Shown: positions 33,146 through 63,702 of the stretch, one piece after another
Layout: every line of letters starts with the position of its first letter
How positions within the stretch are numbered: the first letter of the stretch is position 1
Assembly: GCA_034670405.1 (NCBI GenBank)
Contig: JAXDDX010000160.1
Span: 350,501 to 414,500 of the forward strand
From: Hoplostethus atlanticus
Taxonomy: Eukaryota; Chordata; Actinopteri; Trachichthyiformes; Trachichthyidae
Reading direction: 5' to 3'
Length of the DNA stretch: 64,000 bases
The notes under the pieces: generated by a model
The model's input: only the letters and a program-made list of their open reading frames with translations
The model's database searches: none
Told to the model about the DNA's origin: nothing
Program-made: the position numbers and the translations under genes

Positions 33146-36100
33146 ATGCCTGAACTGAGCGCGGCACCCAAAGCCACGGGCGGATGGAGACACAAAGGAG
33201 GGGCGTATGTGGATCGTGACAAGCCGGCCCAGATTCGATTCAGTAATATCTCTGCAGGAAAAGGTAAAATCCTTATAACGTACTTAAAATGTATTGTCAA
33301 ATATACCCCAAATCCCCCAGTCCCGGTTCAGTTTCCATAACACCATACGTTAATACCACCCATCTAAATGATGCTAGTAGCTGTGGTCTGCGCAGGGCGG
33401 GGCTAACGGTACTTTAGAAGTACAGGCCCCGAAACGTTCCGAAATCCAATTCACTAAACTCGGTTTGAATGTGTCCGTGTCCTAGGCAGACGTACATACC
33501 TCGTATAACAGGTATGAGACTTGAAGTTCATTAGGATCCACTATTTCATTGGGCATGTATCCAATGCACCAGGCAGAACTTATTTCAACCTTTAGTATTG
33601 GTTCTGTCCATAATAAAAACACCTTAAGTTCCTATGTTATGTTCTACCTGGTGTGCACGTTTGCGGATGTGCACGGCAACATTAAAGATTTCTAACCGAT
33701 TTTAACTCCTTGCAAGGACCGGCTGCTCTGCGAGATGCTCATGACTCAACATAATCGCAGCATTAGCTAGCTCAGATACCCTCCTGTTCCACTGCCCCCC
33801 CCCCCCCCCCCCCCACACACACACACAAAATCGAGCATACCTTAAAATTGCTCATGCATGTTTTTTCATGTTACTGCTATTAAAAAGGTCTTGGATATTT
33901 TGAGTGTAACCTGCAGATCTGCAGATTCCCTGGATGTAAAAGAACTTCAACACATGAAAGGAGAACAAGACCATTCTTTGTTAGCAGACGTTTGTGTAAA
34001 CATCAGAAGCTTTTATTAGCTAGTGGCAACCAATAAATACGATCTGTGCACATGGTGTTCAGATATTTCAAATGGCCCGGTCGCTGTGATTTGGAGTCCT
34101 CCTGCCTTCACTTGGATGCCTATGTTGAATGTAACTGACTGGAGGTCAGCTGTAATGGTACTGACAGACCTTTTGTTTGACAGCTGTTGCAGATGCCATC
34201 AGAACAAGCCTGGGGCCCAAGGGCATGGATAAGATGGTCAGTAAACATCCTTTGACTTCAAGCTAACCTCTCCCCCAGCTCCCCCCAGGTCACTTTGTTT
34301 TTAACTAGGAGCTGTTTGTTTCAGATCCAGGACGGTAAAGGTGATGTGACCATTACAAATGACGGGGCCACCATCCTGAAACAGATGCAGGTGCTCCACC
34401 CCGCAGCCAAAATGGTATGTTCCCCCGCCGTGTGACCGCTTCCTGTATTCTGTCCCACACTAATGCTGGTGATGAAAAAGTTGTGATGTGTTTCAGCTGG
34501 TGGAGCTGGCTAAGGCCCAGGACATCGAGGCCGGTGACGGCACAACCACCGTGGTCGTGATTGCCGGAGCCCTGCTGGACGCCTGCTCCAAACTGCTGCA
34601 GAAGGGTAAGAGCTGCAGCGATCAGTTGAATGAAAAATATCATTTAAACATAAATGCTGACAAGTATTGAGCTTCATGTCACTGAGTGGGATTGGTAAAG
34701 GTTTGAATTCGATGAATTTGATTAGCAAAACTGTAGAAACCCTGTTTTGTGCCGGCTGCAGCCTCGAGGTTAGAGGAGCGATCATAACAAAATACCGGCT
34801 TGCCTCGCTGTTCTCGGTCGACGGAAATGATGTTAAAGGGGCGCCCGGGTAGTGGACTAAGCAACTGCCTACCAACGCGTCCCTACAGACACAATTGGCC
34901 GTGTCTGCGGGTTTCTGGGTAAATAAAGGTTAAATTAAACTGTACACTGTTTTTCCTGCCGGTCAGGTATCCACCCCACCACCATCTCGGAGTCGTTCCA
35001 GAAGGCCGTGGACAAGGCCGTGGTGGTGCTGACGGCCATGAGCACGCCGGTGCAGCTGAGTGACCGGGAGACGCTGCTCAACAGCGCCACCACGTCACTG
35101 TGCTCCAAGGTGGTGTCGCAGTACTCCAGCCTGCTGGCGCCCATGAGTGTGGACGCCGTCATGCGCGTCATAGACCCGGCCACCGCCACCAGCGTCGACC
35201 TGCACGACATCAAAATTGTCAAGAAGCACGGGTGAGGAGGAGGAAACCGGTTTTCATCGGCTGGTGGATTCCAAAATTCAGCCGTCACATTTACTATTTC
35301 ACCAGCCACATTCATCTTGGAGTAGAGAGGAGAGACTGATGGTTAGAGAAGGGAAACACAGCAGCAGCAGCATCGGGTCGGCGGCGAGGAAGCAAGAGGC
35401 TCAGACTTAGTTTTAAAGGCCTTGAAGCAACTGATGATGTCATTACTTGTTAAAATAAAAATGTCCTGAATGGTTGAACATGTAATAAAACCTGTTAACA
35501 TATTAACTTCATGAAGAATGTAACATCACATTATTAGTCAATTGTTTGTATTGATTGAAGTATTGATCAGGATTTCCCCAGTGCTAACTGTGTGTGTGTG
35601 TGTTCAGAGGGACCATTGATGACTGTGAGCTGGTGGAAGGCCTGGTGCTGACCCAGAAGGTGGCGAGCACCGGCGTGACCCGTGTTGAGAAGGCCAAGAT
35701 CGGCCTCATCCAGTTCTGCCTGTCCCCTCCCAAAACAGACGTGAGTCTCTGACGGATGAATCCATCACTTCCTTTGCAGAGATTTTTAAAAAAATGCTGA
35801 ATGAGGAATCAAATTGCCAATTGTGTTTCCTCTTCTGATGGTACTTTTTTATCGAGGACATTAATTCTCTGTGGTCTCATTTTATTCAGAAACTGTCTAT
35901 AAATGTTAAGTATCCCAAAGTACCCCAAAATGTACCACAAAGTACCCCAAAGAAGTATTGATACCCAGCCCAAGCCCCATCTAAAACTCTTCTCTTGATT
36001 GGAGCTGATTGATTCCTCTCCCTGACCTCCTGTGTGTTTTGGCGTCCAGATGGACAACCAGATTGTGGTGTCGGACTACGCCCAGATGGACCGCGTGCTG

Positions 36101-39100
36101 AGGGAGGAGCGCGCCTACATCCTCAACCTGATCAAACAGATTAAGAAGGCCGGCTGCAACGTCCTGCTCATCCAGAAGTCCATCCTCAGGTACCAGACGG
36201 CTGTGAACATGCATGCTAGCGTTACGACAGCATATCGGTTGGCTGATATATTATATACCACAGCTACATGAAGTCTGTAAATCCTTTGGTATTGCCTTTC
36301 ATGAAGTTACATCATTTTAACTAGTTGGCATGGCTAGCTACCGAGTGCTATTGGGTAGCATTAATTGAAAATAACTAATCAACCAACGATGGATCAAACA
36401 TCATTTTGAGACGTTTATTCCTGCAGTCTTTCAGATAAAGTAGCTGGATGGTTCCTATAACACTTTTCCCCATATCTAATGATGGATATCGGTTAGACTG
36501 GTAACCAGGTTAACCAGGTTAACCAGGCGTTATTAGAATTGATACTGATACCAAACCTCCTCTGACAGAGATGCTCTGAGCGACCTGGCGATGCACTTCC
36601 TCAACAAGATGAAGATCATGGTGGTGAAGGACATCGAGAGGGAGGACATTGAGTTCATCTGCAAGGTGAGATCCTAGTCTCATCTCTACAGCTGCAGTCA
36701 TCCTGTCTGTCACTGGATGAAACCATATTGATTATGCTCCTCGCCGTTCTGATCGGTTGCATCTCTTCAGTAATCACGTTGGCAGATTCTCAGTTCGTCT
36801 TCTTCACACTTCCAAGGAGTTTGCCTGCAAGTTCGGCTAGCTCCATCTTCTTGGCTTGCAGATATTTGAACAGATATTTGCTTTTGATGACCCAGTATGT
36901 ACTGTGATAAGGCATGCGACGATATGAAAATTTCATGTCACGATTATCCTGGCCAAAATAATTGCGATTCACTATATTATCCCGATAATCATCAAAATAT
37001 GATGGACTGGAATATACTGGAATCACTTTACCTTACATTTTGTTAAGAAACAAATATATTTATTGGATCATAGGACACATATCTTGAATAACTTGTTTTG
37101 TTTTCAGATCACACAGACAGACAGCAAGGACAGCAGAATGAATGCAAAAAAAAAAAAAAAATACGATTATTCCGATAATGGAAATTCACCACGATGAAAT
37201 TATCTTGAGTGTTTTTATCGCGATAAAAGATAAAATCGTATATCGTCCCATCCCTAACTGTGATACTGTGCAGGTTGTCAGTGCCTCTTCAGTTACTCTG
37301 CCCTAAATTCCTATAAATCAAAAAGCCACCAAGGCAAGATGCTGTTCATTTCTTGTCTCTGATCGAACGCTCCCTCTCCTCCCTCCTCCAGACCATCGGC
37401 ACCAAGCCCATCGCCCACATCGAGCAGTTCACCCCGGAGATGCTGGGCACCGCAGAGCTGGCGGAGGAGGTCAGCCTGGACGGATCTGGAAAGCTGGTCA
37501 AGGTACGCTGAGGCCGGATCGGTTTAATCACTGGTCCTAGGTCAGCAGGAAGGAACGTTGAGTAGAGAGAGGGGGGTGTGGTGATCAATGAAAGGTGACA
37601 GTGATGTTGTCCTTTGTATCAAGCTGATTCTGTCCATCAGTTCATGACTGATTCAAACTGAAATAAATCAACAACAACAACATGGAAAAAGCAACTGGAG
37701 ACAAAATTGTTGAGCCATTTTAAGAAAAGGGAAAGAATGGACAGGAAACCATGAAAGGAAAGTAGTAAAAACTAAACTCCAAGGCTTTTGGACTTTTCTT
37801 AACTGGGTTGATGCGTTATTTCAATCTTTGATATTTCTTGACGCAGTAGCCAGTTGATTCAAGGCTTTTTATTCTGATGACAACCAAGTCTTGTATTGAA
37901 CCTCCCTGTTCGCCTGCACAGCGTTCAAGCCAAAGTAGCGTTCCTCGTCCTTTTTCTAGCCTGGTCTCCTCAAGCAGGTCGCTCCAAAGCCTTCCTCTAG
38001 ATGTTTTCTATCCGGGTTATGCCCCAGCGCTGTCCAGTAAACCTGCAGCGTTCCTCTGCAGATCACCGGTTGTGCCAGTCCTGGGAAGACGGTGAGCATC
38101 GTGGTCCGCGGCTCCAACAAGCTGGTGATCGAGGAGGCGGAGCGCTCCATCCACGACGCCCTGTGTGTCATCCGCTGCCTGGTGAAGAAGAGGTAGGTCA
38201 CATGGTACACCATGTCTCCGTTCATGACTGAATGAAGTTCATCAAGTTGATATCCTTAAAAGAATCCAGAGAAACTCACTTTATTTATCTGGATAGCTTT
38301 TGGAGCCTCGTGGGACATGAAATAACTTTCTACACATAAAATATCCTCCTGCAAGAGCGTTTCATTCCATGGTCGTTCCTGATGGTCGCCTCCCTTCATA
38401 AAGTATCTCAAGGGGTTTTAAACAATCTCAGCCTAGTATGAAAAGTCTGCAGTCACTGAACTGCTTCCATTCTGCTTTCTGAGTTTCTCTTCATCGTTCA
38501 GTCTATAGTTTAAACCTCCTCCGTCCGTCCGTCCGTCCCTCAGGGCTCTGATAGCCGGCGGTGGTGCTCCGGAGATCGAGCTGGCCCTGCGGCTGGCGGA
38601 GTACTCACGCACCCTGGCCGGCATGGAGGCCTACTGCGTCCGGGCCTACGCCGACGCCCTGGAGGTGATTCCCTCCACGCTGGCCGAGAACGCCGGTCTG
38701 AACCCCATCTCCACCGTGACCGAGCTCCGCAACAGGCACGCCCAGGGCGAGAAGACCGCCGGCATCAACGTCCGCAAGGTTGGTCGAGTCTTTTCACTCT
38801 GTTACTTGGGTTGTTGAGGGGGTTAGTCAATCCTGTACTGAACATCTCAACGTGCAGAAAGAAACAAAGGAAACAAGCAGCTGATGAGAACGTCTCTTCA
38901 AAAGACCTGCAGACCTTCTCTTCTTCATGTGTCCTGCTTGTGTGTCTCCCTCAGGGTGGGATCTCCAACATCCTGGAGGAGCTGGTGGTCCAGCCTCTGC
39001 TGGTCTCCATCAGCGCTCTGACCCTGGCCACCGAGACGGTCCGCAGCATCCTCAAGATCGACGACGTGGTAAGAGAGACGCCACCGCTGAACTGAACGTT

Positions 39101-43217: not shown

Positions 43218-43226
43218 GCAGTTGAC
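43218..43226. other. Left outer 9-bp direct repeat (putative target-site duplication)
   Basis: GCAGTTGAC directly abuts the first base of the long-TIR element copy 1. An identical 9-mer abuts the last base of copy 2 at 54434-54442, 11.2 kb away. The inner flanks of both copies do not match it or each other. Confidence 0.75.
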
Positions 43227-45892
43227 CATAGACATACATAGACGCCGCATTGGCCTGTGGCTCGTACGTAAACGTCGCCGCCATATTGGACCGGGCAAGA
43301 CTGGCCTGTAAACAAATACAAGTAAACGGGGAGCTGCGGTTCTTCTGGATGAAAGCACTATAACGTTTACATTTCTCAAGCGATTTCAGTGAGTCGTTTT
43401 ATATTCAAGGGTTTATGATCTACGTGGAGTAGAAAAAAAAGTTTTGTCTCTAGTTACGTAGAATCTCGATCGTTAGGCTATAATCGCTGTGTATCAACTC
43501 TTTCTCTTTGGGAAACCTTCAAAGTGTGAGAAAGGTTAGCTAGCCAGCTAACTACAGTCAGATTCATAATATGTCAGCCGCTCAGCCGAAACGAGTAGCT
43601 TGTCATAAAAATCGGTTTGGAGAAATATAGATATATAAATATAGATGAAAATCTCGATAGGCCATTTGAATTTTCCCTCTTTATTTGCCCTCTGGGGATC
43701 AATAAAGGCGTATCTTATCTTATAATAGTCTTTGTCTGTAATTGTGTGTCTTGGAGTATATCTGTATCCTTTCACTGCTATACAAATATAGAAAGCAGAC
43801 TGACTGCCATTGTCTCACTATTGTAATTTGTATTTGCCGATTTTGTTCCATTTTTCTCAATGATGCTCAATTATTAGTACTTAAAAAGTGAATGAGCTGT
43901 GTTCTGACCTGGAGCACAAGAAAAGCTAAAATGATGGGGACATGGACAGAAAAATAACTTTCTGCACATTTCATGTACATTAAATTATACATTGCTCAAA
44001 GAAATTAAGGGAACACTTAATCATCACAGTATAACACCAAGTCAATTAAACGTCTGGGATATCGATCTGTCCAGTTAGGAAGCGTAAACGATTGTGAATC
44101 AATTTCACCTGCTTTGGTGCAAATGAAAGTGACAACAGGTGGACAGGAGAGGCAACAGCAAGACAACCCCCAAAAAGGAAATGGTTTTGCAGGTGGAGGC
44201 CACAGACCATTTCTCTCTCCTTATCCTTCATGACTGATTTTTCTCTAGTTTTGCATTTTGCTAGTGCCCTTGTCACTACTGGTAGCATGAGGCGGTACCT
44301 GCAGCCCATTCAGGTTGCACAGGTAGTCCAGCTCCTCCAGGATGGCACATCCATACGTGCCGTCGCAAGAAGGTTTTGCCCAGCCTGTCTCAAGAGCGTG
44401 GAAGGAGATACCGGGAGACGGGCCATTACACGAGGAGAGCTGGACAGGGCCGCAGAAGGGCAACAACCCAGCGGCAGGACCGGTATCTGCTCCTTTGTGC
44501 GAGGAGGAACAGGAGGAGCACTGCCAGAGCCCTACAAAATGACCTCCAGCGGGCTACTCGTATGCATGTTTCTGACCAAACTGTCAGAAACAGACTCCAT
44601 GAGGGTGGCATGAGGGCCCGACGTCCTGTAGTGGGACCTGTGCTCACAGCCCAGCACCGTGCAGCTCGATTGGCATTTGCCAGAAAACACCAGAATTGGC
44701 AGGTTCGCCATTGGCGCCCCGTTCTCTTCACAGATGAGAGCAGGTTCACACTGAGCACATGTGACAGACGTGAAAGAGTCTGGAGACGCCGTGGCGAGCG
44801 TTATGCTGCCTGCAACATCATCCAGCATGACCGGTTTGGCGGTGGGTCAGTGATGGTCTGGGGAGGCATATCCTTGGAGGGTACACAAACCTCACACAAA
44901 CCTCCACGTGCTAGCCAACGGTACCCTGACTGCTGTTAGGTACCGGGATGAAATCCTCAGACCCATTGTCAGACGTTACGCTGGTGCAGTGGACCCTGGG
45001 TTCCTCCTGCTGCAGGACAATGAGTGTGTAGGCAGTTCCTGGATGACGAAGGCATTGATGCCATTGACTGGCCCTCACGTTCCCCAGACCTGAATACAAT
45101 TGAGCACATCTGGGATGTTATGTCTAGGTGCATCCGCCGCCTCCAAGTAGCGCCACAGACTGTCCAGGAGCTCACTGATGCCCTGATCCAGGTCTGGGAG
45201 GAGATCACCCACCTGATCCAGGTCTGGGAGGAGATCCCCCAGGACACCATCCGCCGTCTCATCAGGAGCATGCCCAGACGTTGTCGGGAGTGCATACAGG
45301 CACATGGGGGCCATACACACTACTGAGCCACATTATGAGTTGTCGTGATGAAATTCACACAAGTTGGATCAGCCTGTGATCTCAATTTTTCACTTTGATT
45401 TTCGGTGTGATTTTGAATCCAGCCCTCAATGGGTTAATGATTTTGGTTTCCATTGACTGTTCTTACGTCATTTTGTTCTCAACAAATTACACAATGTAAT
45501 CAATAAAGATTTTCATTATTAACCAAGGAAAATAAGCCAAATCCTGCTTGACAAACCTGAGTTTTTACAATGCCTTATGACAATGAATTATTTTCCACCA
45601 CGTAAGTAATTCAGTTCATGTGAGCCTAACGTTGACACTGCTCTCTTGAGCGTCTAGCAGTGATTATAGCTTAACTAAGTAACTGGAGACAAAACTTTTT
45701 TTTCTCCACGTAGATCATAAACCCTTGAATATAAAAAAGGACTCATTGAAATCGGTTGAGAAATGTAAACGTTATAGTGCTTTTCATCCTGTTTACAGGC
45801 CAGTCTTGCCCGGACCAATATGGCGGCGACGTTTACGTATCGTAGCAATGGGCAGAAGCAGTCAATGAGGCGTCTATGTATATATGTCTATG
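43227..45892 (+). mobile_element. Long-TIR DNA element, copy 1 (interrupted by a Tc1-like element)
   Basis: It begins CATAGACATACATAGACGCC and ends GGCGTCTATGTATATATG...CTATG. The first ~270 bp and the last ~240 bp are inverted repeats (shared blocks include CGCCGCCATATTGG, AAACAAATACAAGTAAACGG and AGGGTTTATGATCTACGTGG). The interior includes a CTCTGGGGATCAATAAAGG block like a retroelement tail and has no transposase. It is therefore non-autonomous. A ~30-bp piece of the right inverted repeat near 45787 is deleted relative to copy 2. A 9-bp outer duplication would suit a Mutator-like superfamily, but the family is not proven. Confidence 0.88.
43990..45520 (+). mobile_element. Decayed Tc1/mariner-like transposon nested in copy 1
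   Basis: The left terminus, CATTGCTCAAAGAAATTAAG at 43990, follows a TA. Transposase remnants are read in pieces: an N-terminal helix-turn-helix part from about 44287 (MRRYLQPIQVAQVVQLLQDG), FTDESRF and VMVWGGIS from about 44720-44880, a DDE-type segment near 44990-45030 (LLLQDNE), and the C-terminal SPDLNTIEHIWDVM near 45080 and MPRRCRECIQAHGG. Frameshifts near 44385, 44890 and 45030, and a 30-bp in-frame duplication (LIQVWEEI twice) near 45185-45240, show that it is inactive. The right terminus (the complement of the left one) is missing. Host-element sequence resumes at about 45521. Confidence 0.9.
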
Positions 45893-47100
45893 CTGGCACC
45901 TACTAGGCGTGGGTAAGGGGAGATGGAGGTGGGGTGTTCAAAGCCTCAACTTTGTTTTGACTCAGTAGCCCCCTCTAGTGGCAAGAAAAATCGCTTATTG
46001 CACCTTTTGCTATTTCTTTCTTCCTGTTGCTTTTTATCTTCTGCCATCCTCTTTACATTTACAGGGTGACAACTACAGACATGGGTTACTGATATTACAG
46101 AATCTAACTGAAGAGAGAAAAAGTTAAAGAGTCAGTGATGTGCAGGACAGAGAGCCTCCTCCTCACCAATGAAACCAGAGAGAGACAGAGAGAGGATGCA
46201 CTGGACCAGAATAGGAGGAGGCCCTACACTGTCCTACACTGTCCTACACCTCCACTACACATTATTATTGACATCAAACCATAGACATTATTGACAACAC
46301 ATTGTGAACATTATTATTGACATCAAACCATAGACATTATTGACAACACATTATGAACATTATTATTGACATCAAACCATAGACATTATTGACAACACAT
46401 TGTGAACATTATTATTGACATCAAACCATAGACATATTAGTTCCTTATTTCACATCTCATCACATGATGGGTTAAAACATGCTTGTCATGTGGGGACCCA
46501 GCAGGAGGTTGGGTTTAGAAGACGGTGGCCTTGTCCTCACTAACTGAGACATCTAAAGTGTGTTTGACATGTCAACTCCACAGATTGGTTGGATCAGTCA
46601 TTGTCCCCACCATTGATCAAAATGGATTTGAGGTTTCCAACATAGAAACCAGGCCCTACATTACTGAAGACCACATACTCATCCATGCACTCACTTACAC
46701 AGGAGGAGTCATTCACATGTTATTGGATTTTTTCATTGAAATAATTGTAATTACTCTATTAGTTGTATGAAAATCTCTTTATGGATATTATTCACTATTT
46801 TGAACACTCATCATTAATGATGTTTTGCAGCACATCTATCATCCCATCCATTGGTACAGTGGCAACAGAAAGTCACCCACCACCACCACACCCCACCCAA
46901 TTTGTACATTTTTTCCTCAATTCTATTGAAGTGAAACGTTATTTTTCTTAATTTATCAGAGAGTACATAGATCACTCCATTATTATTGGACTTAATGTGA
47001 TCATGGTGTGAGGATGCTGTCTGGTTGGATTGTCCAATCAAAACAACAGTGCTTGGTGGATTATGACATCATCAGGTCCTGGAACTCGTGTTGAGCATCA
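45893..47100. other. Intergenic inside the TE-flanked unit, no gene recognised
   Basis: No coding exon seen. A ~49-bp tandem repeat (CATTATTATTGACATCAAAC... with CATAGACATTATTGACAACA, about 3.6 copies) lies at 46262-46436. The remainder is unique AT-rich sequence. Confidence 0.65.
46262..46436. repeat. 49-bp tandem repeat, about 3.6 copies
   Basis: Nearly identical copies of CATTATTATTGACATCAAAC + CATAGACATTATTGACAACA + CATTGTGAA. They differ only at GTGAA/ATGAA and by a truncated last copy. Confidence 0.92.
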
Positions 47101-47704
47101 TAATGCGTGCTAGATGTGGATTTTGGTCATTGCACTACTGCGACTGGACGAAGAACGACGGGATTTAGGTAAGTCAGTGGTTTTCCTCTTTAATGTTTAA
47201 GTGTTTGAGGTCCAGTGATGCTGGAACTTCCAACCAGAGGTGGAAAGAGGAGTGAAAGATCTGTTTAGTCAGGTACCACTTTGATTTGACTTGAGCAGGT
47301 TTCTAGAAGTATATTCTCTCTTCAAACTCCGACTTGAGGAAAGGTCAGAAAAATGATTTGACTCAATTAAAAGTAGCCTCTTCTGTAATGTACTGTGTTC
47401 ACACTAACATGATCTTCATGTAGAGTGTTACATCGTCTTCAGTGTTTCAGCCATTTCTACTCTGCACGGTAAATATTGGGAAAGTATCTAAGTTAATATG
47501 TGTAGCAGTAAAAGTGCAGAATACATTTACCAACTTGATGTTAAACGTTGACACCAGATAGGAATACGCTCAATGTTGAATGACAAGTTAACATTGAGAG
47601 GTTAACTGTTGTGTTAATTGGATATTTAAAGGGATTGAAGTAACTATTTTCTCTCTATTCTCTCCATGTCTCCATTTTCCTTTCAGTTTTCCTCCATAGC
47701 AAAC

Positions 47705-50565
<2,861 letters not shown>

Positions 50566-50689
50566 GACCTGTGGCCTCACCTGGGGAGTGAGACCTGTGG
50601 TCTCTATGTAGGTTTTTTTCTAGCAAAACACCTGGGAACTACGCTCAGAAAATATTCACCTATTCATTCACTCACCTACAACAAATCTG

Positions 50690-51124
50690 AGGTATCAGTA
50701 TATGTTAACTGCATGTGTCCTCATTCACCAGCGCTAGGGGAACTTCCACTGAAGCACAGCCAGGTGCCATCTTGGTTCACCCTAACTCAGACATGGCCCC
50801 CAATCTGAGTGATGGGGAACCTGAACAGGACAGGAACTGCCCCCAAATTAGGTAAGATTATTTCCTCCGCAGCTCCACTCCCCCCTCAGATGAGGGTGGA
50901 AGAGGAGGAAAATGGTCCAGTTAGGCCATAATGTGAGCAGATCAGGGACCATGTGCATCCATATGTGAAATTTGCAAGATTTGATGACAAAAAGGCATTA
51001 GTACGCTAGAAGTTTTTGATCACCAATATCAGGACAGACTTGTTCACTTTGAGCACATATTGGTCTCTGCCAAATGACATCAAAAACAATGGAGATACAA
51101 ATACTACTCTTAGAAACTTAAAAT

Positions 51125-51161
<37 letters not shown>

Positions 51162-51645
51162 CCCCCAGGCGGTTCTGGACTCCTGGATAAAAACACCTGG
51201 CTGTGATAACTGAGGGGACTCCATCACTGGACACCACAGACATAGGAATCTCTGAATGAAAAATTGACTCAACCAGGAATGAATGTGATTCTTGTTCATA
51301 GTACTAATGGTCTCCTCACAGGTTGGAGCTCCAACAGCAAGCCCCACTGTGGACTCTGCCACTGTGGCCACCCCTTCGGTTCCCCTGAGCAGCCCTGCAG
51401 GTCCTCCCTTGAACAATGACCTGATCCACTCCACATCTGGTAGGACATTCACCTCCACTTGTGTCTGAATTGTCAAGTCCTTCCACACTGTAGTTGATTC
51501 CAACAAGGTCGCTTTATTGTCCTCTTTTGATTTTTAGAGGTCAGCAAGCCCTAGACGAAGCAGAAGAAGGTGGATGAGGACATTCTGCTGCTGTGCGACC
51601 AAAGCCGAAGATGTGGAGTGAAGTTCCCTATGGAGGTTTTCTAGC
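50690..51645 (+). pseudogene. Decayed duplicate of the 3' exons of the HIPK-like gene
   Basis: 50693-50780 repeats the intron end and exon start found at 49909-49990 (CAGTATATGTTAACTGCATG, then GCGCTA.GGGAACTTCCACT). 51319-51450 repeats one 51-bp unit plus the exon end (CCACATCTGGTA.GACATTCA). 51536-51645 repeats the terminal exon (AGGTCAGCAAGCC...GACATTCTGCTGCTGTG), with a stop already at CCCTAG. A GT microsatellite (51126-51160) was inserted or expanded inside. The copy is clearly non-functional. Confidence 0.85.
51126..51160. repeat. (GT)n microsatellite
   Basis: Uninterrupted GT run of about 35 bp within the decayed duplicate. Confidence 0.95.
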
Positions 51646-52018
51646 CAAACACCTGAGAACGACTCTCAGAAAATATCCACCCACGCGTGATCGAAGACAG
51701 AAAACATTTACAGATGTAAAAGTGAACATCTGAATGAATGTGGTAGCAGCCACACTTGAAACTTCCACTTGGCAGAACAAATTGAATCTGCCACTGCAAC
51801 TTCTCAGATGGCGTCTTGGGCATCGCAAATGTTCAATCTGCACGTAAAATTGTTGCAGAGAATTTGATGCCCAAGTGATTAAATCTGAGCAAATATATTT
51901 CAAGTGTGCAGCTGCTTCTCTTACTTCAGATTAACGGGTGGGTGAATATTTTCCGAGTGTAAAAGCCATCATCAAGTTCTCAGGTGTTTGGCTAGCAGAA
52001 ACCTTCATAGGTCTCCCT

Positions 52019-52262
52019 GTGGGCGACACGGTGGCTCAGTGGTTAGCACTGTGGCCTCACAGCAAGAAGAACACGGTTCCTCTCGGTGTGGAGTCTGCAT
52101 GTTCTCCCCGTGTTGGCGTGGGTTTCCTCCGGGTCCTCCGGTTTCCTCCCACAGTCCAAAGACATGCAGGTCAGGTGGACTGGAGACTCTAAATTGCCCT
52201 GAAAGTGATTGACAGTCAATCTGTGTTGGCCTTGTGACGGATTGGCGACCTGTCCAGGGTCT
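52019..52262 (+). repeat. tRNA-headed SINE-like element, best copy in the window
   Basis: GGGCGACACGGTGGCTCAGT, then GGTTAGCACTGTGGCCTCAC, GTCTGCATGTTCTCCCCGTG, GTGGGTTTCCTCCGGGTCCT, GACATGCAGGTCAGGTGGAC, and the end block GGATTGGCGACCTGTCCAGG. The first 70 bp have tRNA-like box A spacing, but box B is degenerate. The element is the same family as 5830-6022 and 62795-62912. Confidence 0.88.
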
Positions 52263-52815
52263 TTCTCTGTCTTTCACTAAATAAACCCAGTCGCTCAAAA
52301 AACAAATTCACTGTTGTCAGTGGTGTGTTAGCAGTAGTATATATTCACTTTTATTTTAGCTTTTATTCAGATGTAGTTAGTAGAAGTGGAATGTTTCTTT
52401 CCAACAGCACCGATATGGAGACAGACTCTCTCGCCATCAAACTATGGAAGCGTATAGTTAACTTAATGCAAATGTTAATGCAAAGTGGAACATGAAGATG
52501 CAATCCAGTAGCATTTTGCATGCATCATTTGAGTCAATGAGTCAATATTCATTCAGAGAATGACTGACAGGTTGGTAGACCATGGAAATGTTATGCAAAA
52601 GGGGGCGTTCTCACTTTTCACATTTGAATTAACATTTGAAATTTGTTAACCATGGGACATGAAAACAAAGCGGGACATGTCATTGAAAATGCTGTCAAAT
52701 GTCTTTTTCATTCACATTTTATTTTCATCTTCCTTTCATTTTCATTTTCCAATCTGCACTAACCTTTGAATTAAGTTAATTATACGCTTCCATATCAAAC
52801 ATGCATGCACATCCA

Positions 52816-52853
<38 letters not shown>

Positions 52854-53110
52854 CTGGAATAGAGTTAAAGACACCCAACTTTTCCAGTTATTTTCTATTC
52901 TATTCTTTTTGACACTGGTCTAGTCAAGCTTGTTCTTTTCCAGCTTTCCTCAGCGTATAAATTGATTGCTTCAGGCTACAGCTACTCAGCAGGGAGTGTG
53001 TCTTTACTAGATCAGAAGATGTGTAAGGTCGCCGTGACACGAATGACAATGGCCGCAAAATCCAAAAAATGATGGAAAGTGATAAATTACCGGTGTTCAG
53101 GGTAAAAAGG
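52263..53110. other. Intergenic inside the TE-flanked unit, no gene recognised
   Basis: AT-rich sequence without a recognisable exon. A CACGCGCGCACACA microsatellite lies at about 52818-52853. A loose palindromic relation exists between ACTATGGAAGCGTATAGTTA (52440) and AACTTAATTATACGCTTCCATAT (52772-52795), which may be ends of an old inverted-repeat element. Confidence 0.5.
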
Positions 53111-53114
53111 AAGG

Positions 53115-53155
53115 TCCCATACCGGGAGTCGAACCCGCGCCGCCTGGGTAAAAAC
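53115..53155 (-). tRNA. 3' half of tRNA-Glu (tRNA fragment/pseudogene)
   Basis: The minus strand reads TTTTTACCCAGGCGGCGCGG then GTTCGACTCCCGGTATGGGA. This matches the anticodon-stem 3' side, variable region, T arm (GGTTCGACTCCCGG) and 3' acceptor strand of eukaryotic tRNA-Glu. The 5' half (acceptor 5' strand and D arm) is absent upstream, where the sequence reads AAAGGACATTTATTG. It therefore cannot be a working tRNA. It lies about 60 bp outside the left end of element copy 2. Confidence 0.7.
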
Positions 53156-53214
53156 AACACAATAAATGTCCTTTGTATGCCTATGATATGTGTCCCGTAA
53201 ACGGTCGTTTTGGA

Positions 53215-54433
53215 CATAGACATATATACATAGACGCCGCATTGGCCTGTGGATCGTACACGTACACGTAAACGTCGCCGCCATATTGGACCGGACAAGA
53301 CTGGCCTGTAAACAAATACAAGTAAACGGGGAGCTGCGGTTTTTCTGGAAAGCACAATAACGTTTACATTTCTCAACCGATTTCAGTGAGTCGTTTTATA
53401 TTCAAGGGTTTATGATCTACATGGAGTAGAAAAAAAAGTTTTGTCTCTAGTTACGTAGAATCTCGATCGTTAGGCTATAATCGCTGTGTATCAACTCTTT
53501 CTCTTTGGGAAACCTTCAAAGTGTGAGAAAGGTTAGCTAGCCAGCTAACTACAGTCAGATTCATAATATGTCAGCCGCTCAGCCGAAACGAGTAGCTTGT
53601 CATAAAAATCGGTTTGGAGAAATATAGATATATAAATATAGATGAAAATCTCGATAGGCCATTTGAATTTTCCCTCTTTATTTGTCCTCTGGGGATCAAT
53701 AAAGGCGTATCTTATCTTATAATTGTCTTTGTCTGTAATTGTCTGTCTTGGAGTATATCTGTATCCTTTCACTGCTATACAAATATAGAAAGCAGACTGA
53801 CTGCCAGTGTCTCACTATTGTAATTTGTATTTGCCGATTTTGTTCCATTTTTCTCAATGAAAAATGGAACAATTTCAAAGTGAATGAGCTGTGTTCTGAC
53901 CTGGAGCACAAGAAAAGCTAAAATGATGGGGACATGGACAGAAAAAGAACTTTCTGCACATTTCATGTACATTAAATTAAATTATATTATATATGGACGT
54001 CTCCACAAGCATAAACCAAGGAAAATAAGCCAAATCCTGCTTGACAAACCTGAGTTTTTACAATGCCTTATGACAATTATTATTTTCCACCACGTAAGTA
54101 ATTCAGTTCATGTGAGCCTAACGTTGACACTGCTCTCTTGAGCGTCTAGCAGCGATTATAGCCTAACTAAGTAACTGGAGACAAAACTTTTTTTTCTACT
54201 CCACGTAGATCATAAACCCTTGAATATAAAAAAGGACTCATTGAAATCGGTTGAGAAATGTAAACGTTATAGTGCTTTTCATCCAGAAAAACCGCAGCTC
54301 CCCGTTTACTTGTACTTGTTTACAGGCCAGTCTTGCCCGGTCCAATATGGCGGCGACGTTTACGTATCGTAGCAATGGGCAGAAGCAGTCAATGAGGCGT
54401 CTATGTATATCTATGCGTCTATGTATGTCTATG
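53215..54433 (+). mobile_element. Long-TIR DNA element, copy 2 (uninterrupted, 1219 bp)
   Basis: Same element and orientation as copy 1, nearly identical over shared parts. Left and right ends are inverted repeats of about 275-290 bp: CATAGAC termini, the CGCCGCCATATTGG block, and GTTAGGCTATAATCGCTG near the inner limit, answered by CAGCGATTATAGCCTAAC at about 54151. The interior has no transposase. It shows what copy 1 looked like before the Tc1-like insertion: CATGTACATTAAATTAAATT... continues to CATAAACCAAGGAAAATAAG. The 9 bp after its right end equal the 9 bp before copy 1. Confidence 0.88.
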
Positions 54434-54442
54434 GCAGTTGAC
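54434..54442. other. Right outer 9-bp direct repeat (putative target-site duplication)
   Basis: GCAGTTGAC immediately follows the last base (…GTCTATG) of element copy 2 and equals 43218-43226. The 9 bp before copy 2 (CGTTTTGGA) and after copy 1 (CTGGCACCT) do not match it. Confidence 0.75.
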
Positions 54443-55373: not shown

Positions 55374-58300
55374 ATGGCGAATGCCCACCGGACAAACGTC
55401 TTGGTCACATCGTGTTTGAAGACGCCGGTAGACCCGCAGACCAAAGCCCCGTTAGCTTTATACGAGCGCGAGAGAGTCCTACCGTACACAGCTGCAGAGC
55501 AGATGGACAACCGTCACTACGAAAAGGAGGTAACTGTTAAGACAGAAATGTAATTATTGTTTTTATGTATTTATGATGTTATTCCTTATTTTATTTTCAT
55601 CTTTATTGATAATTTGTGTCCACTAGGATTCCATGCTTTTAAAATCCCTTCGTCAGTTCTGTTGGCTGGCTTGGTGAAATAAAACTGGGTAAACTACCAA
55701 CTCCGGTCAGTCATCACCACAAAGCAGTACAGGTTTTCTTTTTCGATATCTCTTTTCATGTAACTTCATATATTTTTTATATTATAACATGTGAGTTTAG
55801 CCTGAGGGGGAGGTTCAACTCTGAATCACAAAGAAAAGTACAGTAAGTTGAGGTGGTTTATCTGTCAGCAGGTTTGAGTCTCCCATACACATTGCTCGGC
55901 CTGTTGGTCTGTTGTGACCAAGGTCCTTGCTGTTGAGCTGTGCATGTCCCTTTTCTCATGTTATGACTTGTGTGTACTTAAACACGCTTTAACAAGTCCT
56001 GTTACTGTTTAGACGTTCTTTACTGTTCACTTATGTGAAAGCACTTTTTGAGAGACACTTTTTTTGTCTCTCTACCTTTTTACTTTTTCCTGACTACAAG
56101 TGTTATATGTGTTAACGTTTTAGATTGTTATTGTTGTAATTTTTTTTTTTAAACAAATTTACCCTCGGGTACAAATAAAGAACCCTTGAGCCAAATAAAA
56201 TTGTAATATACTGTTTTTGACTAATAGAACTTTATTCTGTTTGGTGTGAGTCGCTGAGTGGATAATGGTGACGTTGAAGGAAGCAGACACAATCTCTACA
56301 GTCCATTCACACTTCCAGGTCAGTCTGTGTGTGTTGGAAGGGATTTGACCTGCATACTTTGTTGGCCTGACTATTTTTGGCCTCTCACCGTGACTAGATT
56401 ACTGGACGTCACAGTCAGTTCATAATCCCAAACGCTTCGTTTTCCTCTGGACTAGAACGTTACTTCAAGTTAACCCTTCCCTCCTTAAGCAGGATCCTAT
56501 TTACAGGACGAGGTCGAAGTCTTGACCCGTCTGTCAAACGCCTGACGATAATGTGAGCAGAGGTAGAGGCAGACAGCATGAGGTCTGTCTGTTGAGCCCT
56601 CACGCCTTGTTACACAGCCGCCATATGGCCAGTCTAACCGCCCTAGCAGGGTGTAATAGGCTTAGGCCTGCAGGAGGCACTTGGTATTTGTCTGTGCCTC
56701 ATAGCAGGACTGGTCTGTCCCAGGTTCGATCCCCCATGACCCCGAATGTAAACCATGCTGAAGTGTCCTTGAGCAAGTCACTGTATCTGTACGTTTGAGC
56801 CTGCAGGGTCACTGCTTTCTGTCTGACCTTGACCTCTGACCTCCATATGGAGGCTCACAGGCGGAAACACTAATTCCCCCTCAGGAACCAATCAATGTTC
56901 TGATGTTCTCCCATCACTTATTAAACTCTCCATGAGCTTTATCTGTCATGTTCAACTGACGCTGAAATGTAGAGACTAACATCAAGCATGTGTCGGCCAA
57001 CTACCATCTTAGCTTGTCTTGGTGCAGCATGAAAATATGGATCAGCTATAGTCTAACAACTCTGCCAAGGTTGGCAGTTCCATTCTAGTTAGACTGATAC
57101 ATCGATTTGATATATTGATATAGATATCTGCCTTTTATTAAATATTGAATATTGGCCAGTGTGACGACATGATGGAGGATCCTCCCTGACCACAGCTACA
57201 GGAAAACTGTCTGTAAAATGTCAAATTCAGTTTGTACTTATCATCATATCGTATCCATTGATGTTTTTTGAAAATCAATCCCTCGTTTAAAGTCAGTAAT
57301 GTCTCCCAGAGTTTCCCTAGTATTGAATCGGTGGGGGGGTCATCCTGCCTTTTAAAGAGCGTTTCAATGGTTTGGCAATGAGTTTTAGTGTCCCATGGTC
57401 TAAATGCTGTTTTTGGCATGAACATGGAAAATTCTTAAGATATTGAATTTTGGCACAAAATATAGGCTATAGGCAGCTTCAGTACAACAATATTGGTTTG
57501 GTATCGGCATTCAAAAACCCATATTGCAGTAACACTGACAAAGGTGGTGTTAGTGGTTCAATTCCCACCCATATTAAAAATCTGTGCTCTAATATTTCTG
57601 TAAGCTTTGGATAAAAATGTCCACCAAGTTGCATAATAACATTTGACCTCTTCAGATGGTGTACGAAGACTCAGGTTCTGAGTTCGGAGACGAGGATTCT
57701 CCGGGGAAGGGCAGCCCTCTGACGATCAAGGACTACAGGATGGCAGGAGACCGCATCAACCTGAGGGAAATCTTCTTCTCCAACAAGGAGTATTACAGCA
57801 AGCTGGAGGAGCTGAAGAAGGCCCACCTCCACACTATGGCCGAGCTGGACAGCATGTACCGCACAAAGCTGCAGCTCAAATGCATGGCACCCCTGGATGC
57901 GACGCTGGAGGCGGGGCACCTGTGGGTGGCTTTTTTCCTTTGTGATTACATTCCGGGTCCAAAGAGATTTATTGTGTTGTGTCTCTCATGTCTGTTTGTG
58001 TGTGTTGTGTATTTCTCAATAGGATCCCATGGGCGAAGAGCAGCCCAGCAGCTTCATGCTGTTTAAGGAAGTCTCATTCTGCTGTTGAACTCAGGAGAGG
58101 CTCTGGACAGTCGGACACATCAGATGAGGAAGGAGCTGCCAACAACGATGTGGAGAAAGGCCTGCTTTGCTCTCCCAAAGAACACATCAAGAACATGTGG
58201 CAGGACTTCAAGCTGTCCCCCCGCAATCGCCACCCATCGTCCTCCTCACTCCAGAGCCTGCCAGGAGAGCAGAGGAGGCCCAAGCACCCAAAGGGAAAGG

Positions 58301-61300
58301 GCAAAAAGAGGCAGGGGCGTAAAGACGCAGATCAGGAGCCTTGGAAACACCGAGTGACCGTCCCAAAACCATTCCACATGACTCGGCGTGAGGCAGACAG
58401 ACGGAGACACGGCATCAAGACGCGCTCAGAGGTTGAACTGGAGAACGCAGCGCTGCGACGGCAACTGGAGGAACTGACGGAGTGCCGGCGCAAGTTCCGC
58501 GCCAGCCCTGCACCCGCGCACGTTCACCTCCCCCTTTTTGGAGCGCTGCAGGAGCAGGAAGAGGAGCGACGGTGCACCATGCGAGAGCGGGAAGAGCAGA
58601 ATCTGCGCGTCGTCCAGAAGCCCTTCAGCTTCCTGGAGCGAGAGTGGCTGAAGAAAGAGCAAAGAGAGGAGCATCTCCGCCTCCTGCAGCCCTCCGCCCA
58701 GGACGGGGTGAAACCCTTCAAGGCCAAGCCTGTGCCCAAGGCAGTATACCTGGCAGCGTCAGGGGAACAGATGAAGGAGGAGCAGCTGTATCGGTCCATC
58801 AAGATGCAGATGAGAGCAGAGGAGATGCTCTACAGCGCCTCCATGCCCCCCAGCATGCTAGCGCGACGACTCAACGACCGGAAGAAGACCAAAGATGCCG
58901 TGACTGCAGCTGAAGGGGATGACGGCTTCTCCCACAGTCCCAAGATAAACAAAGAGGTACCTGATTTTAATGCCCGTTACCGACGCTTCCAGAGACACTT
59001 GGAGAACCGAAAGGAGGTGAAGCCCATCACTGCATGTGAACCCTTCCGTTTAAGGACGTCGCAGATCTCCTCGCACCGCGAACGCATCCTGGCGGACATT
59101 GAGAAGGAGCAGACCAGTTCTCGGGCGACGCGCTGGCCTTACGTCAGCTCCGGGTCTGTCCGAACGCCCAACTCCAGCCTCTGCTCCTCCCTCTCAGGCA
59201 GCCTGGAGCTCCTGCCTGCTAAAGTCACAGATGCCACCAAAAAGCGCCAAGAGGCTGTAAGGTACCATCATAGAATACCAAGGGCTCATACATAGATAAA
59301 GTAGAGAGAGCTGCAGAACTCAGATGCCCTGTTTAGACATAGCGACAGTCAGAGTCCTACCTCCTTGTTTTGACTCCCCAATGGATGAGTTCTTACGGAC
59401 CTCCTTGCCCCTCGTTTCCCTCAGTTTCCTAGACCACCTCCAAAACACTCTTTGTACCTCATTGTACCCAAGTCCTCATCTGTGACCAGATTGTCTCCTT
59501 GAGTAGAAAGGTGCTTGAACAGAGGAAGAAGGCAGAGGAAGAGGAGGAGAGGTGGAGAGAGAGACAGAAGCAGAGGGAGAAGAAGCTGCAGAAGGTGGTG
59601 TTGAAGCGCGCCCAGGCCAACGACTCTCACCTGGCGCTGGCGCAGACCAACCAGACCAAACTCAACGAGTTCAGGTACCCAGACAACATGTTGAGGACCA
59701 TGTCGCCCCTCAGCCACTCAGTCCGTTACTGTATTCTTACTTGTCGTCTGAAAACACAACTTGAAATTTCAATTAATAGCAGATCATCTGTAACTGTTTT
59801 CAAACCAGAACATAACAATATATTTCCCTCATACTCAGATTACTAAAGACTCTTTGTTTGATCATAGACGTATTTCCACCGCAGGAACCTGAAATTTTTG
59901 GGTACTTTTTTGAGCAGGAACCTTTTTAGTTCCCCAAAAGAGTTTGAGGTTTCTTTTCCACCGCACCGAAGTACTGGGGAGATAATGTAAATAAGGAATA
60001 TGTGACACGACAAAAGTGCGACTGCTTGGTTTCAGCTACTACCCTTGGTTGGAAAGGTCCAAGTTCCTGGAACTAAGTACCAATAGTTCCTGGATAGTTC
60101 CTGCAGTTGGAATGTTGTTTTGAGATGCTCTGGTTTTCCCTGAAGCATCTTTTTATTTTTATTTTTATTTTTATTTTTTAGTTAATCTTTGCTCCGTTCA
60201 CTTACAAGGAAGTAATTATGAATAGTCACTTCTACTTATGCTGGTCTGTTTGTCTGAAAGTAGATGGTAGATAGATGTAGCCACTGCTAATTCAAAATGA
60301 ATGGGAGTCATACGGGTGACTGGGGGCAAAATGTTGAGCAAAATGATCCAGATTTGGTACTAAACACACTGTTGAAGTACTTTGGCCAAGGATTGTGAAA
60401 CATGTTCATTTGTAGTGGCTCAAGTTTGCTGATGCTTGTATGATAGTTGCCTAGGAATGAAACTACATATTCCAGTTGAGCCTAATTCCTGGACCAGTTG
60501 CTCCGGTCTGGGAAACATCTGAATGTTCTCCTTTCATGTCAACCATGTCAACCATTGTGTATTCTCCTAATTACATTGCCTTTCATCTTCATTTCTGAGG
60601 CGTAAAGAATATGTCAATACACATACCTAGATTACAGTTGCAATCCTGATGACTACAAATTAAGCATAAAACTGTTAAATTCAATTGTACATTGTTGTTA
60701 TTGGACAGTTAAGAAAATATGATATATGACAGTGGTGTCCAATCATGTGCCATGGAGGGCCGAGACTCTGCAGGTTTTCACTCCAACCAAAGACTACACC
60801 AGGTGATTTCACTGATTAGTCCCTCTCTGGTTGAAGGTGCGAATCGGTGAAATCACCTGGTGTAGTCTTTGGTTGGAGTGAAAACCTGCATACCCTCGGC
60901 CCTCCGTGGCACATGATTGGACACCACTGATATATATGATCATACCAATGTATTTTTGAATTATCCAATGGGTTTTTAATATGTCATAGGGTCATAGGAT
61001 CCTAAAACCTGACATAAATGACCATGTAAGCTTTCAATTCAAAAAGCTTTCCAAATTTGCAGCAACGTGGTGGTAGCGATATGTAACTGACTGTTGCTTT
61101 GTGTGCCGTTGAATTTGTGTTGTCGGGGATCCATAAACCTGTCTGATGTACAGGAAACAAGACCTCCAGCGCAGGAGGGAGTACCAGCAGGAGATTAAAG
61201 AGATCCAGGAGAGGGTGAAGGGGAGGCCGCTGCTGTTGGAGCAGGTTGCCCAGGTGAACAAGGAGTCTGATCACTGCAGGGGATTCTGGGATGCCAGAAT

Positions 61301-63702
61301 ATGCTGTGCAGCCTTCTGGAGGTGTTGTGGGCCTCGTTCAATGATCATCTGTGATTGGGGGCGTCCATTTGATAAGCCCAGGGACTCTCACTCATCCTCT
61401 AACATCCACTCACCTTACTTTGTATTGGTATACTGCTGTACCAAATCCATCTATAAAGCCTAGTAAGAGTTTTTATAAGATACATAATCGATACAGACAT
61501 TTCAGAGAATTGAAATAAAGACTGATTAATTGATTAGCTAAATAATCAGTTCACTAAAGGGTAGTAAGAAATCTATCTTTGTTCCAAAACAGCAAATACT
61601 GACCGGAAAGTCAGTTGAAAGCAAGAAATCTCAGCACCTGACAAAGTAAGATTCAAGATTCAAGAACTTTATTTGTCACATACACACACGGGGTGTGCAG
61701 TGAAATGAAGTAATCGTTGAGTATTGGTATTGATCAATATCCTATCAACCCCCCACAGATATATTATGGTCATTGTGTATTATGGGACGGTAAAAACCTT
61801 ACTTATTGCACCTGTAACTAATTAAGACTGAACTGAATGTGAGTTGTCCCACACTCAGAAACCCAGGTGGAATAGTACTATACTATACTATACTATACTA
61901 TACTATACTATACTATTAGAGTTTATTGGAGCGTTTGTGTAGTGAGGGTGAATAAAGACATTCTAACTAACAGGACAGAATAGAATGGTCCTTTAAACTG
62001 CGTGGTTGCTCTGACTAACATGGATCCTAACATCTGACGTAACGTGTTTTGGTAACAGAGGAACGCCAAACGGGCAGCAGAGAAGCGCTACGCCGACGCC
62101 CTGCATGGATGTGATCTGACGGAGGACTTTGTCAGCAGCAAGGTGGTCAAAGGGTCCGCACGCAAAACCTCCCCCTCCAGCGACTACAAGCAAAGGTAGA
62201 CGTCTGCCCAGTGCACCACTCACATCCAGTGCATTACAAACAGCCTCACATCCAGTGCATTACAAACAGCCTCGCATCCAATGCATTACAAACAGCCTCG
62301 CATCCAATGCATTACAAACAGCCTCACATCCAGTGCATTACAAACAGCCTCACATCCAGTGCATTACAAACAGCCTCACATCCAATGCATTACAAACAGC
62401 CTCACATCCAATGCATTACAAACAGCCTCACATCCAGTGCATTACAAACAGCCTCACATCCAGTGCATTACAAACAGCCTCACATCCAATGCATTACAAA
62501 CAGCCTCACATCCAGTGCATTACAAACAGCCTCGCATCCAATGCATTACAAACAGCCTCGCATCCAATGCATTACAAACAGCCTCACATCCAGTGCATTA
62601 CAAACAGCCTCACATCCAGTGCATTACAAACAGCCTCACATCCAATGCATTACAAACAGCCTCACATCCAATGCATTACAAACAGCCTCACATCCAGTGC
62701 ATTACAAACAGCCTCACATCCAGTGCATTACAAACAGCCTCACATCCAGTGCATTCTAGTCTTTTAAAGCTGCACTAGGCAACGTTAAATCCGACTTGGA
62801 GCACCCGGAGGAAACCCACATGAACCCTGGGAGAAGAAAGGACCAGTGCCGGGACCTTCTGGCTAAGGGGCCACAGTGCTAACCACTGAGCCACTGTGCC
62901 GCCCCACCAGAATTTCATTTGGATAAATCGGGCGAATGCATGCCGTCTCAGTCAGGGATCGGGCGCAGTTCTCTGTTGCAGCCCCACTTTTGGACCGGTG
63001 CATTGCTCCATATACATTTTGCCTACTGTATCTTACATACCCTCTGAAATACTTGTACATGTAGAATGACATCCCATCACCCCTTACTAATAAGAATTAC
63101 TGTTTCATTTTCTGTAAAGCACTTTTTAAAAGAACTATAAAAATAATGTTTATATTATAGAAAATAATACAGCTGATGATCCAGCTGCAAATTCATGGTA
63201 AAATGTTTAAATCCCTATAATTGGCTTTGCAATCAGATTTGCAATCAGTATTGTGCTGAATTTATTCTTTTGTTGATGCTTTGTCAGTGACGAGGAGGAG
63301 CCAGATATGGGATATGAACCTGTTCGCTACAGACAGGTCTACCTGGATGACGAAGACCTTGAAGCAGACTCAGGAGAGAGGGAGAGAGGCATGGAGGAAG
63401 AAGAGGGTGACGGAGCTTCATTAAGCATCCATGATGGAGAAGGCGTTGGACATTATGATGATGACAATGGCGATGAACACCACTATTTGGATGACAGTTA
63501 CCACTACTCAGACGATAATGAGAATTACTCAGACGACAGTGAGCGTGACCTGGCTCGGGAGGACAGCATGCAGGAGGGTGACATCATCAAACGGCGCCAC
63601 GGCAGCCACAGTGATAGAAGTAGCCAGCATGGCCACAACAATGAAAGCTCTGACAGGGAAAACGGAGACAAATTAAACAAGGCAAGTGATGAGGAAGACT
63701 GA
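55374..63702 (+). CDS. fam161a: FAM161A ciliary/centrosomal protein (UPF0564 family)
   Basis: Microtubule-associated protein of the centriole inner scaffold and photoreceptor connecting cilium. Human FAM161A loss causes retinitis pigmentosa (RP28). Coding exons: 55374-55529, 57656-57921, 58023-59261, 59507-59674, 61154-61253, 62059-62195, 63288-63702. Total 2481 nt, 826 aa; human isoforms are about 660-716. The first exon, MANAHRTNVLVTSCLKTPV, matches the family N-terminus. Exon 2 has FSNKEYYSKLEELKKAHL and a short coiled coil. Exon 3 (residues 141-554) carries the UPF0564 domain with VTVPKPFHM, VVQKPFSFLEREWLKKEQ, EEQLYRSIKMQMRAEEML and ILADIEKEQTSSRATRWPY. Exons 4-5 are charged coiled coil (REYQQEIKEIQERVKGRPLL). 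The last exon is an acidic, His/Asp/Tyr-rich low-complexity tail. The ATG is preferred because an upstream in-frame extension begins only at TTG. No AATAAA was seen in the 298 bp after the stop. Confidence 0.95.
56660..56785 (+). repeat. tRNA-like SINE remnant
   Basis: CCTGCAGGAGGCACTTGG, then GTGCCTCATAGCAGGAC, a box-B-like CAGGTTCGATCCCC at about 56722, and CTGAAGTGTCCTTGAGCAAG, a phrase common in fish SINE tails. Box A is eroded. It lies in fam161a intron 1. Confidence 0.55.
57080..57520. repeat. Diverged interspersed repeat, paralogue of 42740-43120
   Basis: It shares ordered blocks with the copy downstream of cct4: CCTTTTATTAAATAT, CCACAGCTACA, GTGGGGGGGTCATCCTGCCT, TTTTAGTGTCCCATGG, TTTGGCATGAA, TAGGCAGCTTCA. 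It has the same orientation and no coding capacity. It ends about 130 bp before fam161a exon 2. Confidence 0.6.
59868..60112. repeat. MITE-like element with 'CCACCGCAGGAACC' ends
   Basis: The left end TTTCCACCGCAGGAACCTGA and the right-end complement (TTCCAACTGCAGGAACTATC) are similar inverted termini. The interior repeats GGAACCTTTTTAGTTCC and AAGTTCCTGGAACT palindromes. It sits in the fam161a intron between exons 59507-59674 and 61154-61253. Family not assigned. Confidence 0.6.
60730..60929. repeat. Near-perfect 200-bp fold-back MITE
   Basis: The ends CAGTGGTGTCCAATCATGTG and CACATGATTGGACACCACTG are exact inverted complements. The arms stay complementary for about 80-85 bp each (GCAGGTTTTCACTCCAACCA, AAGACTACACCAGGTGATTT), around a ~30-bp loop. 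The CAGTGGTG end suggests a hAT-type origin. Flanks read ATATATGA on the left and ATATATATGA on the right, a near-duplication in AT-rich DNA. Confidence 0.92.
61650..61712 (+). repeat. Retroelement tail fragment
   Basis: GATTCAAGATTCAAGAACTT, then TATTTGTCACATACACACAC and GTGTGCAGTGAAATGAA form a phrase I recognise as common in fish genomes, probably a LINE/SINE end. It is a short fragment in fam161a intron 5. Confidence 0.55.
61875..61916. repeat. (ACTAT)n pentanucleotide microsatellite
   Basis: About eight copies of ACTAT in fam161a intron 5. Confidence 0.95.
62220..62755. repeat. 26-bp minisatellite after a fam161a 5' splice site
   Basis: About 20 copies of CACATCCA[GA]TGCATTACAAACAGCCT, differing mainly at two sites (CACATCC/CGCATCC and CAGTGC/CAATGC). 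The two variants occur in runs. The array starts about 24 bp after the exon ending at 62195. Because 26 is not a multiple of three and no stop occurs in the unit, all three plus-strand frames are open across it. None is a gene. Confidence 0.96.
62795..62912 (-). repeat. tRNA-headed SINE-like element, 5' part
   Basis: The minus strand begins GGGGCGGCACAGTGGCTCAG, then TGGTTAGCACTGTGGCCCC, and ends with GTGGGTTTCCTCCGGGTGCT. It is the same family as 52019-52262 with an internal deletion. Confidence 0.82.

Follow-up and report, generated by a model that had tools for sequence, protein, structure and literature searches.

The Ac/Ds macrotransposons of maize belong to the hAT superfamily, and in bacteria MITEAba12, a miniature inverted-repeat transposable element (MITE), may form composite transposons. 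For the maize macrotransposons, Huang and Dooner (2008) is a cited reference. Here we describe a vertebrate locus that resembles these systems, an 11.2-kb unit (43218-54442) in a 64-kb stretch of Hoplostethus atlanticus DNA (hereafter the window; C160:350501-414500), in which two copies of a short element that we call E enclose a segment, K, with a HIPK-like kinase gene. In Ac/Ds, two nearby element copies act via their outer ends as one large transposon with cargo, and one described 28-kb macrotransposon left on excision a footprint in the form of a modified 8-bp duplication (PMC9910405); there the maize alleles lie near p1 and p2, whereas here the host is a vertebrate, the element appears to be non-autonomous, and the cargo is an intron-containing gene found at many dispersed loci. 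Bacterial composite transposons are similar in that two copies of a short element mobilize the DNA between them, but here both the element and the gene, with its introns, are eukaryotic. Among fish, a study of Teratorn of medaka proposes that cargo between two piggyBac-like copies could transpose in (PMC10175614). This case is comparable in its host group and in a cut-and-paste transposon moving large cargo, but Teratorn is piggyBac-like and carries a herpesvirus genome, while the cargo described here is a kinase gene of cellular type and the element makes 8-bp duplications. Pack-Mutator-like elements (Pack-MULEs) and other gene-capturing DNA transposons also have terminal inverted repeats that enclose sequence from host genes, but one study gives a length of 1-2 kb for most Pack-MULEs and reports none longer than 7 kb (PMC6431247), in contrast to an 11.2-kb unit in which a gene with introns lies between two whole elements. 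Extra HIPK-like genes are also described in other fish genomes, with a HIPK-family expansion in goosefish for which a link to eye size is suggested (PMC7729161) and Hipk1 among the families unique to marine medaka (PMC7493909), and the passages concerned give no transposon mechanism.

We propose, with a probability of about 0.77, that the unit belongs to a family of composite DNA transposons and that E-K-E moved as one piece. In the window, both E copies lie on the forward strand, at 43227-45892 and 53215-54433, and K fills the approximately 7.3 kb between them (45893-53214, forward strand). A sequence-only reading of the window had described the two copies as direct and nearly identical, and comparison of the right copy with the left agrees with this, giving 95.4% identity across 763 columns and 97.1% across another 275. 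The same reading had pointed to a 9-mer, GCAGTTGAC, at both outer ends with unmatched flanks on the inside. Our scan of both strands of the 64 kb bears this out, since GCAGTTGAC occurs at 43218-43226 and 54434-54442 only, directly adjoining the outer termini of the two copies (CATAGACATA... and ...TATGTCTATG), while the flanks on the inner side, CTGGCACCT following 45892 and CGTTTTGGA preceding 53215, are unlike each other and unlike GCAGTTGAC. E proper measures about 1.2 kb and has long terminal inverted repeats, with its ends 84-98% identical in inverted matches, the longest of which spans 253 columns at 90%. The left copy is longer than the right because a Tc1-like element is nested within it (44000-45514, forward strand, borders approximate and placed by eye); the transposase reading frame of this insert is split among frames, and it has a match to HTH_Tnp_Tc3_2 (PF01498) inside 44286-44939 with an expectation value of 1.2e-22.

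Genome searches were made within the H. atlanticus assembly itself (632.8 Mb, 1161 contigs), where E proved abundant. Of 466 first-look candidates genome-wide, 40 were scored; 39 other full-length scored rows are 91-96% identical to the left window copy, and 38 copies outside the window were retrieved with their flanks. Both termini were recognized by script in 26 of these 38, and when the 8-mers at the two ends were compared, 14 of the 26 copies matched at 8/8 and 2 at 7/8, against a shuffled-pairing expectation of 0.036 and 0.038, respectively (about 0.07 together). Two more copies, L018 and L045, show a duplication by eye and were scored as misses owing to a shifted end, and L045 has an extra base like that of the window. 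Since the duplication is 8 bp genome-wide, we take the window repeat to be CAGTTGAC (43219-43226 and 54435-54442), with an extra ninth base, G, at the right end. The target consensus of hAT elements is nTnnnnAn, and P-type elements likewise give 8-bp duplications; in the duplications of E, T stands at position 2 in 8/16 and A at position 7 in 11/16, which is a bias only. On the basis of its 8-bp duplications, E thus fits hAT-like, possibly P-type, elements. Mutator-like elements make target duplications of 9-11 bp, and a Mutator origin of E, which had been suggested from the 9-bp repeat, is rejected on account of the 8-bp duplications in matching copies outside the window. Among the literature matches listed for the terminal-repeat strings of E, none was related work by title.

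Some E copies adjoin K (L011, L018, L023, L027, L037, and L044). At L023 (C43:3108558) and L027 (C75:1984307), E stands beside the 3' end of K and the right flanks are near-identical (GTCTTTCCC..CATGGGAACC), so that this stretch was either duplicated jointly or lies in both cases inside another repeat. At L016 (C678:3786-6870), the flanks of E are mutually inverted, as would be expected of a palindromic junction or of a fold-back in the assembly.

K is dispersed as well. A genome search for more HIPK-like genes flanked by E, which the sequence-only reading had suggested, found them, for example at C6, where the arrangement is again E-K-E. The kinase DNA including its introns gave 213 candidates, of which the 40 scored are 90-100% identical and some are partial, while 40 were scored of 228 candidates for the 5' part of K and 40 of 1674 for the 3' part, which also contains other small repeats. 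Merged by position, the matches fall at no fewer than 74 loci on 55 contigs with some part of K, and at least 40 of them have the kinase part. The fullest K is that of C46 (7,845 bp). It matches window K over its whole length, with gaps of up to about 70 bp and differences in repeats as the exceptions, and extends past both ends of window K, which is thus short by about 540 bp on its 5' side and by about 24-27 bp on its 3' side. Part of the 3' end of K (53100-53160, reverse strand) is what we take to be a likeness to the 3' half of a tRNA-Glu gene, and ARAGORN found no tRNA gene in the unit. K copies also occur as same-orientation pairs 7.5-18 kb apart (C99:1461714/1471281, C549:3424/21114, and C664:6454/14012), which are possibly tandem units from recombination.

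Several other K units, at unrelated sites, have target duplications of their own. End pieces were retrieved for 22 K loci other than that of the window, and both ends were located at 8 of these, giving nine units including the window. Unit ends were placed by motifs chosen by eye, with a tolerance of one base of offset in both real and cross pairs. The outer 8-mers match at 7/8 or better in 7 of the 9 units, while 0 of 72 cross pairs reach 7/8. The match is 8/8 in the window (CAGTTGAC), at C6 (GTGTTACC; E-K-E), at C46 (GTTAAACT; stubs of E on both sides), at C104b (CTCAAACC; left stub), and at C89 (ATAGCCAC; left E absent), and 7/8 at C103 and C58, each with a right stub. E is present at both ends in the window and C6, and the other units retain one E or stubs of about 4-19 bp that keep the outermost bases of E; on the right of C46 and C58, the stubs comprise only about 4 bases and are too short to serve as proof. 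Each of the seven matching units terminates in E ends or E-like stubs, with the left end of C89 as the exception, and there K starts within about 2 bp of the left K junction of the window.

The cleanest of these units is C6, whose inner junctions, GTCTATG/CTCACC and GTTTCTTC/CATAGAC, are without repeats and whose left E is inverted relative to that of the window. The 3' junction GTTTTGGA/CATA.. is common to the window, C89, and C104a, with differing right flanks, and GTTTCTTC/CATA.. is common to C6, C104b, C7, and C103, where it borders a stub. C104a (C104:1382500-1397500) represents a third kind of unit, in which the 3' junction of the window is followed by E and the 5' side carries an E-like but diverged stretch (about 73%), a hint that an older relative of E lies next to K; with its right end located and its left side diverged, it was left out of the nine. 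At C12a (C12:3687772-3701000; L018, L060, L051, and L061), the right E sits exactly at the border between the 3' end of K and a CATAGACATA stub, as if E favors the borders of its own units, and because this E has its own duplication, GTTTCTTC, we regard it as a secondary insertion.

Together, the 8-bp duplications of E, the dispersal of K, the separate outer duplications at unrelated sites, and the absence of any duplication at the inner junctions of the window and C6 make composite (macro-) transposition the best supported explanation. Under this explanation, two non-autonomous hAT-like E copies would flank a K of 7-8 kb with its intron-containing kinase gene, and a transposase supplied in trans would recognize the two outer ends of the pair (left end of the left copy, right end of the right copy) and ignore the inner ends, so that E-K-E would move together by cut-and-paste. 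Insertion between cct4 and fam161a would then make the 8-bp duplication CAGTTGAC. Later insertions of E into K could become new unit ends, and C89 would be a sister unit from which the left E was afterwards excised. The sequence-only reading had left movement of a composite with its gene and integration of a circle side by side; the outer duplications of C6, C104b, C46, C89 and, at 7/8, C103 and C58 favor the former, and the latter keeps a lesser share of the probability.

The foremost alternative, which we consider unlikely, is that K itself is a large non-autonomous transposon of the ordinary Pack type, with short E-like ends of its own, and that the E bodies are later insertions or conversions, in which case no composite movement took place. 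This would suit C46, where outer duplications accompany stub ends only, the left stub of C104b, and the secondary border insertion of E at C12a. Secondary insertions would, however, leave the duplications of E itself and remnants of K on the outside, whereas at C6 E is found at either end without a duplication on the inside, and in the window the two E copies, although internal to K by comparison with C46, adjoin the outer 8-mer. New E ends have therefore replaced the old ones in the window, and we regard this position as the clearest indication that the unit is delimited by E ends.

Less probable again is the proposal that a circle of one E plus K, excised via E-E recombination, recombined into a resident E flanked by CAGTTGAC. 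Such a route would give the same outer match and the unmatched inner flanks, E copies are abundant, and the same-orientation K pairs at C99, C549, and C664 suggest that units can recombine. The element tree places the two window E copies as sisters (support 0.79), which is not decisive between transposition and circle recombination. On the other hand, the stub-ended units with outer duplications (C46, C104b, C58, and C103) offer scant homology for integration, which makes circle recombination less likely, although this argument fails if their E copies shrank later while retaining their outermost bases. As a general explanation, a chance match or mis-assembly is very improbable, for even though the evidence comes from an assembly and 14 of the 22 other K loci did not yield both ends, a given 8-bp match arises by chance about once in 65,000, similar architecture recurs on other contigs, and the duplication counts for E and for K units (7/9 against 0/72 cross pairs) contradict it.

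Several observations weigh against composite transposition. Two of the nine units depart from the pattern, with an outer match of 6/8 only at C12a and no outer duplication at C86b, and the placement of ends at C46, C58, C89, and C12a was steered by the match itself; the window, C6, C104b, and C103, whose ends are standard E termini or stubs, provide the more independent evidence. Of the 22 other K loci, only 8 yielded both ends, and in the remaining 14 one or both were absent from the pieces retrieved. Among ten K loci fetched by expected distance, both ends were found only at C86b and C89, and the fetched pieces of C12b, C55, C49, C86a, C19, C5, C69, and C121 gave partial or no end matches. 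K also has borders without a recognizable E at C34, C43, C7, and C35, so that many K copies must have been truncated or have moved otherwise: C34 shows a left border only, C7 has a right E but a left end of truncated K without E, and the pieces from C63 and C35 contain no E end, with the K border of C35 near window position 45959. The sister status of the window E copies could equally stem from recombination or conversion between them. No transposase of E came to light, without a completed search aimed at PF05699, and the comparison base is a single genome.

The cargo gene had been described as HIPK-like, and its family membership stands, while the window copy itself turns out to be broken, since exon 3 contains an in-frame stop and a change of length in exon 5 shifts the frame. 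Its kinase domain lies at 47705-49678 on the forward strand in seven exons (47705-47884, 48010-48201, 48297-48478, 48727-48850, 49029-49146, 49295-49369, and 49506-49678), and a model made by eye adds likely exons 8-9 (49939-50566, forward strand), of which 49939-50411 contains 51-bp repeats and 50462-50566 would encode a basic, cysteine-bearing C-terminus. As judged from sequence similarity, the gene is a member of the HIPK kinase family: a PDB search with the sister copy L049 returned HIPK3 (1.5e-92) and HIPK2 (7.3e-92), followed by DYRK2 (8.8e-45), and L049 also matches PF00069. Named kinase relatives are mostly teleost HIPK1/2/3-like proteins, with a best identity of 55% among the best 120 of 1077 matches. 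The six internal introns have GT/AG borders in 8/8 copies examined, which rules out a processed retrocopy origin.

Copies of the kinase gene were compared between the window and ten sisters (L048-L054 and L093-L095), as a first set of eight and then three more. Six of the 11 copies are open through all seven kinase exons, and the window, L050, L053, C6, and C104b are broken, with C104b missing most of exons 2-4. Mean divergence is 6.7% in exons versus 2.3% in introns, and exons exceed introns in 55/55 pairs; among the first eight copies, every exon except exon 5 is more divergent than its neighbouring introns. In the six open copies, the ratio of nonsynonymous to synonymous differences per site (pN/pS) is 1.73, with pN above pS in 15/15 pairs, which are not independent of one another. 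Exons that evolve faster than introns, with mosaic sites, are a pattern of arms-race proteins, and the pattern seen here is a hint, not proof, of diversifying selection. The upstream stretch 46450-47140 is likewise divergent (10%), so that non-coding divergence is not uniformly low. Among the first eight copies, 683 of 1225 exon site pairs are incompatible with a single tree, which makes exchange between copies likely, and such exchange could alone raise exon divergence.

The unit lies between cct4 and fam161a, as the sequence-only reading had placed it, and this position is upheld by Cpn60_TCP1 exons on the left and a FAM161A_B match on the right. To the left, cct4 (34939-39092, forward strand) has TCP-1/cpn60 matches at 34939-35232 and 38514-39092, the latter below the Pfam cut-off, and to the right, a FAM161A/B coding stretch marks fam161a (57946-59292, forward strand). 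The two gene names are putative and follow these domain matches together with the earlier reading. Further to the right, a minisatellite at 62115-62778 leaves all three forward-strand frames open (repeats CITNSL.. and HYKQPH..).

Among the matches listed in the open-access literature, we found no report of a vertebrate composite-transposon family that disperses a whole gene or a kinase gene. A broader reading, which we offer tentatively and at slightly less than even odds, is that these units are a vertebrate counterpart of bacterial composite transposons, in which pairs of hAT-like elements mobilize the DNA between them and have spread the K kinase widely, with many copies open and exons evolving faster than introns under diversifying selection. 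If this is true, dispersal driven by transposable elements would supply copies to a rapidly evolving gene family whose growth in fish has been interpreted as adaptation. The exon-faster-than-intron pattern suggests that some of the cargo copies are under selection and are not junk. Macrotransposition by paired elements, known in maize, would provide a mechanism for lineage-specific gene expansion with countable footprints, and it predicts that other genes lying between such element pairs can turn mobile.

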